DNA from: an uncultured Oscillospiraceae bacterium
Lineage (GTDB): Bacteria > Bacillota > Clostridia > Oscillospirales > Oscillospiraceae
Assembly: GCA_947585425.1 (NCBI GenBank)
Contig: CANPWZ010000011.1
Span: 1-52,573 of the forward strand
DNA: 52,573 nt
Direction: 5' to 3'
The notes under the pieces were generated by a model, which was not told where the DNA came from, searched no databases, and was given only the letters and a program-made list of their open reading frames with translations. The position numbers and the translations under genes are program-made. Shown piece after piece: positions 36,122 through 38,109 of this stretch (positions are counted from its first letter, which is position 1; each line of letters begins with the position of its first letter).

Positions 36122-36167
36122 ATTATAAGGCCCCGGCCCCTCCCCTGTCAAGGGAAAGGCCGGGGCC
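36122..36167 (-). promoter_or_regulatory. mnmA promoter overlapping the ybjQ terminator hairpin
   Basis: Minus-strand TTGACA (36146-36151), an 18-bp spacer and TATAAT (36122-36127). The -35 lies in the loop of a 10-bp stem, 36129-36138 with 36158-36167, that follows the ybjQ stop. One stretch thus seems to end one transcript and start the next. Confidence 0.7.
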
Positions 36168-36518: not shown

Positions 36519-37169
36519 TCAGTATTTGCTTGCCTCGTCCTCTTCGCCCCTGCCGATCTCCCGGAAGCGCTGGAACAGGGCCGCCAGCACCCCCACGATG
36601 GCCACCGCCGGCACGGCGATCAGAATGGCCAGCGTCCACAGAGGCGGGGCCGCCTCCGGCTCGGCGGCCCAGGCCCACATCATGATCCCGATGGACGCGG
36701 CCATCAGCGCCACTATCACCAGAGCGATGACGGCGGGCGCCACGTAGCGGGTGATCTTGTCGGTCTTTTTCACGTTCACAAACTTGGTCCCCTCCTGTTC
36801 TTTCTGGGCCATCCGCGCCAGCACCCCGTCGGCGTCCAGAGTGTCCAGCCTCGCATGGTCCTCTTTCAGGGAGGCGCACAGGGCCGACATCTCCGCCAGG
36901 CTGGCCTTTCGCCGCTCCAGCTGGATCACGTGCCGGTCCATGGCGTCCTCCAGGGTCAGCTCCCCGGACTTGAGCCGCTTGATCTCCTCGATGGGCACGT
37001 CCAGCATCCGCAGCAGCCGGATCTTTTTCAGCCACTCCACATCGGCCTCGCCGTAGTCCCGGTAGCCGTTGTCGCTGTTGCGGCCCGGGGTGAGCAGCCC
37101 CTCCTTTTCATAAAAGCGGATGTTGCCCTTGGTGATGCCCGCCAGCCGCTCTACCTCGTTGATCTTCAC
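36519..37169 (-). CDS. MerR family regulator with two C-terminal membrane helices
   Basis: A 216-residue protein. Residues 1-70 form the MerR winged helix (VKINEVERLAGITKGNIRFY, then GYRDYGEADVEWLKKIRLLR); a dimerisation coil follows to about 120. Two hydrophobic helices come next (VAPAVIALVIVALMAASIGI and LWTLAILIAVPAVAIVGVL) and a short acidic tail, so the regulator is likely held in the membrane. No metal-binding cysteines of classic MerR are seen. The start is GTG with GGGAGGCG upstream. Its promoter (37194-37224) has the 19-bp MerR-type spacer and dyad; an identical copy precedes yhfC. Confidence 0.9.
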   Translation of the reverse strand: MKINEVERLAGITKGNIRFYEKEGLLTPGRNSDNGYRDYGEADVEWLKKIRLLRMLDVPIEEIKRLKSGELTLEDAMDRHVIQLERRKASLAEMSALCASLKEDHARLDTLDADGVLARMAQKEQEGTKFVNVKKTDKITRYVAPAVIALVIVALMAASIGIMMWAWAAEPEAAPPLWTLAILIAVPAVAIVGVLAALFQRFREIGRGEEDEASKY

Positions 37170-37193
37170 AGCTCTCGCCTCCCTTCTGAGACC

Positions 37194-37224
37194 ACGGTAC
37201 ACCTTCCACCAAGTGGAAGGTCAA
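37194..37224 (-). promoter_or_regulatory. MerR-type promoter/operator, copy 1 (merR-ybjQ)
   Basis: Minus strand: TTGACC (37219-37224), a 19-bp spacer and TACCGT (37194-37199). The spacer region carries a perfect dyad, CCTTCCAC and GTGGAAGG around 3 bp (37202-37220). Long spacers with a central dyad are the hallmark of promoters untwisted by MerR proteins. The -35 overlaps the yhfC stop codon. The surrounding 33 bp (37193-37225) are repeated exactly at 38020-38052. Confidence 0.85.
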
Positions 37225-37970
37225 GCGTTTTTTTGAGCTTTTTTCAAATTTTGATAGACGATCCCCGCGAGGCAGGCCGCCAGCACCGCAACGGCCGCCG
37301 TGGCCGCCTCCGCCGCCGCGATGCCCGCTTTGGCGTTCAGCGTCACCGCCAGGAAGTTGGCCCCCGCGTGGAGCAGGACGGCGGCTGGATACAGCCAGCC
37401 CTTCCCCGGCTGCCGCGCGGCGGCGAACACCAGCACGGAGTTGCTGACGTGGAGGGCCACCGCCAGCACCCGCTCCAGGGCCGTCCAGAGGAACATCCAC
37501 GCTGGAACAGCCGTCACGGTCTCCGCCGCGGACAGCACCGCCGGGTCGGCGACGGCGCCGCTCCCCGCCAGCAGCAGCACAAGCAGGTTGTTCAGCATGG
37601 CGACGCCCACGATCAGCACCGCCTCGGCGCCGCCGTGGCCCGCGCCATAGGCCAGGGCCGTGGCGGGCGCCGTGTGCTTTTTCAGCAGGAACCGGAAGGC
37701 AATGAACCGCCCCGTCTCCTCAAAGAGCCCTGCCGCCAGGCCGCCGTAGAGGCCGTAAATCCAGATATTCCCCTGGATCGCCCCGCCCAGGGGGCCGCCC
37801 AGCACCAGGGCGTGGAGCACCTGTTCCAGCACCAGGGCGGAGACGACGAAGGTCCCCGCGCCCACCCAGAAGGCGGACCACCTTCCCCCTCTCCCGCGGT
37901 ACCACAGCATCAGACCCAGGGGCAGGGCCAGCGTCAGAAGTCCAGTGAATACGATGGCCGCGATCTGCAT
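37221..37970 (-). CDS. YhfC family intramembrane metalloprotease-like protein
   Basis: A 249-residue protein with about eight helices. Conserved polar motifs within helices are EETGRFIAFRFLL (about residue 85), AYGAGHGGAEAVLI, LERVLAVALHVSNSVLVF and a late LLHAGANFLAV. Glu-Glu, His and His/Asn motifs of this kind place YhfC near the CPBP/PrsW intramembrane protease group. The ATG at 37970 is chosen with GAGGAAGTG upstream. It has the same 33-bp MerR-type promoter as merR. Substrate unknown; the neighbouring membrane-anchored MerR is an attractive candidate. Confidence 0.85.
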   Translation of the reverse strand: MQIAAIVFTGLLTLALPLGLMLWYRGRGGRWSAFWVGAGTFVVSALVLEQVLHALVLGGPLGGAIQGNIWIYGLYGGLAAGLFEETGRFIAFRFLLKKHTAPATALAYGAGHGGAEAVLIVGVAMLNNLLVLLLAGSGAVADPAVLSAAETVTAVPAWMFLWTALERVLAVALHVSNSVLVFAAARQPGKGWLYPAAVLLHAGANFLAVTLNAKAGIAAAEAATAAVAVLAACLAGIVYQNLKKAQKNA

Positions 37971-38020
37971 CGCTCTCACTTCCTCTCCGTTTTTTGGGGC
38001 CGGGGCCCCCGTTCAACGTC

Positions 38021-38051
38021 ACGGTACACCTTCCACCAAGTGGAAGGTCAA
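38021..38051 (-). promoter_or_regulatory. MerR-type promoter/operator, copy 2 (yhfC)
   Basis: Minus-strand TTGACC (38046-38051), a 19-bp spacer and TACCGT (38021-38026), with the dyad at 38029-38047. It is identical to copy 1 across 33 bp, while the sequence outside is unrelated, so the conserved block equals the functional site. Confidence 0.85.
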
Positions 38052-38083: not shown

Positions 38084-38109
38084 CGGGGCCGGGGAAACCC
38101 CCGGCCCCG
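38084..38109 (-). terminator. Terminator of the GerMN gene
   Basis: An 11-bp GC stem (38084-38094 with 38099-38109), followed on the minus strand by AAAATATTTTT. Confidence 0.7.

Follow-up and report, generated by a model that had tools for sequence, protein, structure and literature searches.

Organization of the locus

Within the window (the whole 52,573-nucleotide stretch that was analysed), yhfC, merR and ybjQ follow one another as a unit on the minus strand, with terminator-like hairpins at both ends. The features are as follows.

38084-38109, minus strand: terminator-like hairpin 5' of the yhfC promoter
38021-38051, minus strand: MerR-type promoter/operator of yhfC (TTGACC, 19-bp spacer, TACCGT)
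37970-37221, minus strand: yhfC, putative intramembrane metalloprotease (PF10086, E=4.8e-44)
37194-37224, minus strand: identical promoter/operator of merR-ybjQ, overlapping the yhfC 3' end
37172-36519, minus strand: merR (merR-2TM), 217 aa, with a predicted C-terminal membrane hairpin and a tail (PF13411, E=5.9e-20)
36576-36773, minus strand: part of merR, predicted membrane hairpin, residues 134-199 (from hydrophobicity, charge and an AlphaFold2 model)
36522-36575, minus strand: part of merR, C-terminal tail ending in ...QRFREIGRGEEDEASKY, common to small 2TM proteins
36503-36180, minus strand: ybjQ (PF01906, E=3.8e-34), 16 nt 3' of merR
36129-36167, minus strand: terminator-like hairpin 3' of ybjQ, 18 pairs

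Translation of merR more likely starts at the GTG at 37172, which is preceded by GGGAGG, since the GTG at 37202 falls inside the merR promoter (37224-37194). An alternative start of yhfC is a GTG at 37979. The original prediction described a membrane-anchored MerR regulator next to a YhfC intramembrane protease at 36519..37970. Its coordinates and motifs hold and the two genes do adjoin, but ybjQ also belongs to the unit and the merR start had to be shifted to 37172. Beyond ybjQ lies what we take to be an MnmA-like frame (36151-35000). The perfect TTGACA-18-TATAAT promoter of this next gene (36122-36151, minus strand) overlaps the terminator stem 3' of ybjQ.

Conservation of the neighbourhood

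MerR is matched at E 1e-15 in 133 of 400 genomes of the family. The MerR-2TM set consists of 73 genomes (E up to 5.6e-41) in which the match runs into the hairpin, some matches being cut by contig ends. Two genomes with weaker matches, G046 (1.5e-27) and G058 (1.2e-24), reaching residues 193 and 192, were left out and counted in the control set; neither has the operator box described below. A second set comprises 80 named loci, mostly titled Oscillospiraceae, from genomes that partly overlap the first set. At the level of the class, 6 of 291 genomes match MerR at E 1e-30, the window's own genome included. The latter covers the whole 216-position MerR profile, while the matches of the other five are partial, that of G610 extending up to position 189.

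The gene directly 3' of merR, often overlapping it, is ybjQ in 71/73 genomes of the family sample and in 79/80 named loci, among them Flavonifractor plautii ATCC 29863 (L202); all misses, two and one respectively, are contig ends. That ybjQ is a mere passenger was rejected on these counts. The position directly 5' of merR is occupied by yhfC in 10/73 and 12/80 loci of the two sets. A PF10086 match anywhere in the genome was obtained in 18/73 MerR-2TM genomes (14/53 among those of good quality) and is absent from the other 55 (39/53). A conserved neighbourhood outside this genome, as the original prediction requires, is borne out where merR-ybjQ is concerned; yhfC stands beside merR in a minority. 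To account for the distribution of operonic yhfC on a tree of 65 of these MerR proteins, 7 gains or losses have to be assumed, of which at least 5 are forced by well-supported branches. The constant position of yhfC before merR would fit an old presence followed by repeated loss.

The MerR protein, its hairpin and its tail

PF13411 matches residues 7-72 of the 221-aa merR frame. The protein has the winged helix-turn-helix of the MerR family. Its profile is matched by 39 distinct PDB sequences, with CueR among the best, and the homologues of known structure include the multidrug regulators BmrR, BrlR and MtaN. Among the NCBIfam models, those of CadR-PbrR, the Zn(2+) regulator and CueR score best, but none of these comes near its cut-off. 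The Pfam scan found no effector domain in MerR.

In a single-chain AlphaFold2 model built with 50 sequences (mean pLDDT 86.5, pTM 0.60), the DNA-binding head is followed by a long helix of dimer type (74-104), a shorter one (114-126) and the two long helices of the hairpin, 134-170 and 178-216, with pLDDT below 50 at residues 211-217. No sizeable soluble domain lies between the head with its dimer helix and the hairpin in this model. The hydrophobic segments, 157-175 and 191-209 of the 227-aa frame, correspond to residues 147-165 and 181-199 of the 217-aa protein, and two TM segments are predicted in 73/73 MerR-2TM proteins of the family sample and in 80/80 of the named set. DNA-binding domain and predicted TM segments are therefore found in one protein, as in transmembrane regulators. 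The mean number of K/R residues over the 73 proteins is 4.0 before TM1, 0.18 in the loop and 3.85 in the tail, which fits a topology with both N- and C-termini inside. The predicted architecture of a MerR domain, a coil and two hydrophobic helices is thus confirmed, as is membrane anchoring in the form of a prediction drawn from hydrophobicity, charge and the single-chain model.

The tail carries R at position -16 in 72/73 and E at -8 in 71/73 proteins. Its last residue is Y in 69/73 and F in 4/73, one of the four F being a contig cut end and not a genuine C-terminus. C99 and H81 are invariant in 50/50 aligned MerR proteins, and that of the window has no cysteine pair.

The MerR-type operator

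The same 31-bp promoter, TTGACCTTCCACTTGGTGGAAGGTGTACCGT, precedes yhfC and merR, with hexamers TTGACC and TACCGT at a 19-bp spacing. A 21-bp perfect dyad, ACCTTCCACTTGGTGGAAGGT, starts within the -35 hexamer. Promoters activated by MerR proteins are typified by a dyad within an overlong spacer (19-20 bp), and here too the dyad lies in such a spacer, of 19 bp (TTGACY-N19-TAnnnT). Two copies of the 31-bp promoter exceed chance, as shuffling of the window (n=100) gave a mean of 0.00 when up to 3 mismatches were allowed. A looser box pattern hits two places only in the 2.0-Mb draft genome, the yhfC and merR promoters, each of them on both strands, and the regulon of this genome may therefore be just yhfC and merR-ybjQ.

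Boxes are found 5' of merR orthologues in 69/73 cases at up to 6 mismatches (62/73 at up to 4, 61/73 at up to 3), with strong conservation of TTGAC, the dyad arms and TAnnnT. For the four others, the genome scan shows a box just upstream of merR in G086, G089 and G355, and 631 nt upstream in G308. All 10 operonic yhfC genes have a MerR-type box of their own (0-5 mismatches of 27). Together with the identical promoters in the window, this upholds the coregulation of yhfC and merR that had been predicted.

Whole genomes were scanned for TTGACYTTCCMCYNGGTGGAAGGTRTA, up to 3 mismatches being allowed, and the reversed pattern served as control. The latter gave 0 in each listed genome, and chance occurrence of the operators was rejected on this ground. 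The box occurs in 68/73 MerR-2TM genomes as against 2/77 family genomes taken as lacking MerR-2TM (Fisher p=7e-34, with counts uncorrected for relatedness). Within the nine genera that hold both kinds of genome, the figures are 16/18 and 2/13. The MerR-2TM genomes without a box at this threshold are G091, G106, G109, G172 and G264. Both box-positive control genomes belong to the window's genus, and their box immediately precedes a different MerR, which also has two TM segments at its C-terminus; some of the sites could thus be driven by another MerR that shares the operator.

Three genomes of this genus without MerR-2TM (L172-L174) have such a different MerR, of about 300 aa and with two C-terminal TM segments, downstream of a similar box (1 mismatch in two, 4 in one). 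The middle part of this protein gave no Pfam match in the one case that was scanned.

Genes behind the operators

Of the 120 sites that the scan yielded, 65 lie upstream of merR, one of them at the distance of 631 nt and another on the contig that carries the first piece of the gene. Seven more stand in front of operonic yhfC. The remaining 48 are found elsewhere, spread over 40 genomes, and all of them were retrieved. Of these further boxes, 41 precede genes of envelope-defence type, the classes being assigned by homology to representatives of which one per class was Pfam-scanned, not each member. The largest class (23/48) is formed by operons of a MacA-like adaptor and an ATPase. MacB is present in 15 of them, and the remaining 8 stretches end before its position; a TetR gene leads 13 of the 23, the match in L115 being weak. 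The MacA-like adaptor also matches the CusB-named domains PF16576 and PF00529. Nine boxes precede beta-lactamase-family proteins (PF00144), five precede ABC ATPase-permease pairs (the permease of the scanned pair has no Pfam match), two NfeD-SPFH pairs and one a PLD/cardiolipin-synthase-like protein. One more precedes an unlinked yhfC (L083, genome G252, 2 mismatches); an unlinked yhfC of G351, a genome of the window's genus, has a 4-mismatch box upstream of its likely start. The other 7 of the 48 do not clearly fit the envelope theme.

The theme of the regulon would be defence of membrane and wall. The sigmaW regulon of B. subtilis has a similar target set. This regulon fits the other suggestion of the original prediction, that MerR senses the membrane state directly, although the signal itself is a guess from the targets.

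YbjQ and the hairpin-tail module

YbjQ belongs to the PF01906 family, with relatives of solved structure (1y2i, 1vr4 and 2gtc). It has no TM segment. The family is widespread, being represented in 10/14 control genomes, including E. coli and archaea; a limited literature search found no function for YbjQ.

Between merR and ybjQ, 36 of the 71 operons hold one to three small 2TM proteins (64 in total) that end in the same tail. The search pattern demanded a final Y/F and acidic residues, so these tail positions are partly imposed. The operon of the window is without such a protein; its two nearest relatives (L034 and L035) have one. No Pfam family matches the small 2TM proteins above cut-off, and sub-threshold matches to Rv2743c (about 0.001) were left unused.

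Outside the family, ybjQ is matched in 97/291 genomes of the class. From these, 50 loci were taken, 30 as the best by E-value and 20 more in listed order, irrespective of their neighbours; one near a contig end was skipped, some genomes give two loci, and two loci have less than 300 nt upstream. A small 2TM-tail protein stands directly before ybjQ, without MerR, in 8/50, and among the 520 ORFs of at least 60 aa in these loci the tail ending occurs in only these 8. Its absence from the other 42 indicates that YbjQ does not always need the tail. In two genomes of the family without MerR-2TM (L011 and L022), the order is yhfC, 2TM-tail protein, ybjQ; in L011 this set stands behind an SPFH gene.

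We infer that hairpin and tail form a module that partners YbjQ, and that MerR-2TM arose by fusion of a MerR head to this module. Since hairpin and tail also exist as small proteins paired with YbjQ, the latter is most likely the cytoplasmic partner that contacts the tail. A wider conjecture, offered as tentative and more doubtful than not, is that R..EI..GEEDDxSKY with its free C-terminal Tyr, carried by small membrane hairpins, is a YbjQ docking signal, that YbjQ and hairpin form a membrane-state sensor beyond the family, that the MerR fusion of Oscillospiraceae is a transcription factor for membrane stress that replaces sigmaW-like control, and that YhfC, where it occurs, trims the hairpin proteins.

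YhfC

The EET, GHGG and HVSN motifs, which had been read from the sequence of the window's YhfC together with its family, are indeed present, the first as EETGR. An alignment of 12 proteins (that of the window and 11 others) shows no variation at E87, E88, R91, H115, H177 and H204, but does so at the N of HVSN. Loss of the putative catalytic residues in homologues, which would have spoken against the original prediction, is thus not seen in these 12 proteins. According to PMC6588880, CPBP-PrsW-like proteases combine an EExxR/EExxxR motif with histidines that are conserved in further TM segments, as YhfC does in the 12 aligned proteins. Comparison with PDB sequences gave no match at E 1.

The box in front of all 10 operonic yhfC genes and of the two unlinked copies (G252 and G351) suggests that YhfC is a target of the regulon and not the trigger of MerR.

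Proposed mechanism and alternatives

We consider it probable that the locus encodes, in reduced form, a regulatory system built on a membrane-tethered MerR, in which this activator would govern an envelope-stress regulon with YbjQ as the partner of its tail. MerR would bind the 21-bp dyad that fills the overlong 19-bp spacer and activate its own operon and envelope-defence genes, yhfC included. The C-terminal hairpin would keep MerR in the membrane and most likely reads a membrane or envelope disturbance, which the long dimer helix would relay to the head that binds DNA; MerR could then act without needing to be cut free. YbjQ, via the tail, would determine how active or how stable the hairpin proteins are. 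YhfC would be a regulon product working in defence, perhaps with feedback on the hairpin proteins. The membrane location, binding and activation, signal, tail-YbjQ contact and role of YhfC assumed here are deduced from what comparison offers, namely the promoter architecture, the boxes before merR and yhfC, the recurrent targets, the merR-ybjQ link and the common hairpin and tail.

The original prediction had proposed that cleavage releases MerR. In such regulated intramembrane proteolysis, YhfC would cut the MerR hairpin and free the head, or remove MerR as an off-switch. This is compatible with the EExxR motif and histidines that YhfC keeps, with the yhfC-hairpin-ybjQ order in two genomes without MerR-2TM, and with the HTH regulators of several designs, all with predicted membrane segments, that adjoin at least 11/53 yhfC genes of the family sample (MerR-2TM in 3, MerR with a CxxC zinc-ribbon-like end in 6, XRE with TM in 2). 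More of them may lie there, as only 10 proteins around the 53 genes, one itself PF10086, were run against Pfam. A functional link between yhfC and these regulators is plausible, but coregulated defence explains the recurrence equally well. The protease is not constantly beside the regulator: 55/73 MerR-2TM genomes are without a PF10086 match, the gene adjoins merR in 10/73 and its operonic state requires 7 changes on the tree, whereas YbjQ is the constant partner. The boxes of yhfC fit a target, and membrane-bound regulators can work from the membrane, as stated in PMC10269533. Release by YhfC was therefore rejected as the core mechanism; the proteolytic reading as a whole is unlikely, and what survives of it is that cleavage may play an accessory part, or switch MerR off, in the minority of genomes with yhfC.

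Two other readings keep the tether but change the signal. MerR might sense a metal or a thiol in the manner of CueR, with YbjQ handling the metal. The Pfam label of YbjQ ("putative heavy-metal-binding"), the metal-type NCBIfam models (all far below cut-off), the CusB-named matches of the MacA-like adaptor, and the invariant C99 and H81, of which C99 leaves thiol or metal sensing possible, agree with this, as does the operator, which we take to resemble the CueR box with CueR-like half-sites. However, the window's MerR lacks a cysteine pair, and no metal pump or chaperone family appears among the scanned representatives of the 41 classified sites, nor among 8 proteins scanned at the 7 remaining sites; two of these proteins have just a Cu amine oxidase N-terminal domain. 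We hold this reading to be improbable. The hairpin might, on the other hand, merely dock MerR near membrane machinery while a soluble ligand is sensed, for general drug efflux as with BmrR/Mta. Multidrug regulators are among the homologues of known structure and MacAB-like efflux is the commonest target, but MerR has neither a Pfam effector domain nor a sizeable soluble domain between dimer helix and hairpin, and the NfeD-SPFH and cardiolipin-synthase-like targets speak against general drug efflux; there is little to expect from this reading either.

Relation to known systems

Like CueR/ZntR activators, the proposed membrane-tethered activator has an HTH and a dimer helix, and its dyad is set in a 19-bp spacer. 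It differs in having a predicted membrane hairpin where no metal-binding C-terminus is seen, and in its targets of envelope-defence type. The PrsW-RsiW-sigmaW system of B. subtilis combines membrane-bound control with a CPBP-related protease, and its targets include NfeD/flotillin, ABC and MacAB-like exporters and a beta-lactamase-family protein. Control and targets would thus be similar, but the present operon has no sigma or anti-sigma factor, and the protease appears as a target and is missing from most MerR-2TM genomes. B. subtilis is the sole control genome with PF10086. Its yhfC, of the same Pfam family, is a FapR lipid-regulon gene (PMC4525379), unlike the yhfC studied here, which is under a MerR-type box.

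More than 100 DNA-binding domains are found in transmembrane transcription regulators according to the survey PMC10269533, and MerR is not named in its main text. With ToxR, CadC, TcpP and BcrR, MerR-2TM has in common a cytoplasmic DNA-binding domain and membrane segments in one polypeptide, as predicted here; it differs by the MerR-type domain, the overlong-spacer promoter, the C-terminal hairpin with its conserved tail, and a proposed partner, YbjQ, that has no TM segment. A literature search in which subscription journals are thinly covered found no description of a membrane-bound MerR regulator, and none of this combination, the available parts of PMC10269533, PMC7939560, PMC4525379 and PMC6588880 included. 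The parts are all of known families or kinds; the combination is an apparently new variant of transmembrane transcription regulator. If true, a membrane-reading MerR with a defined operator would be a new control of envelope-defence genes in gut Clostridia. With a constant genetic partner that carries a conserved C-terminal tail, the function of YbjQ becomes a testable question of binding, and the MerR-2TM regulon gives YhfC proteins a concrete physiological setting.

Other settings of YhfC-like proteins

For 6/53 yhfC genes of the family sample (L013, L014, L015, L017, L020 and L177), the gene immediately before, which overlaps yhfC, encodes a second type of MerR, with 1-2 predicted TM segments and a zinc-ribbon-like CxxC end. 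XRE-type HTH proteins with predicted TM segments stand beside yhfC in L258 (606-1235, minus strand), where the protein has a CxxC zinc-ribbon-like end, and in L026 (2325-2960, minus strand). SdpI-family proteins lie directly beside yhfC in L008 (2223-2900, minus strand) and L030 (2252-2959, minus strand), a setting that resembles peptide immunity. Lower-scoring PF10086 proteins form a separate recurrent setting directly behind an ftsZ-like gene (L077, L078, L263, L267-L274, L276 and L277), the ftsZ-like identity being Pfam-checked in L268 alone. A six-TM protein follows the ftsZ-linked PF10086 gene in L077, L263, L268 and L269.
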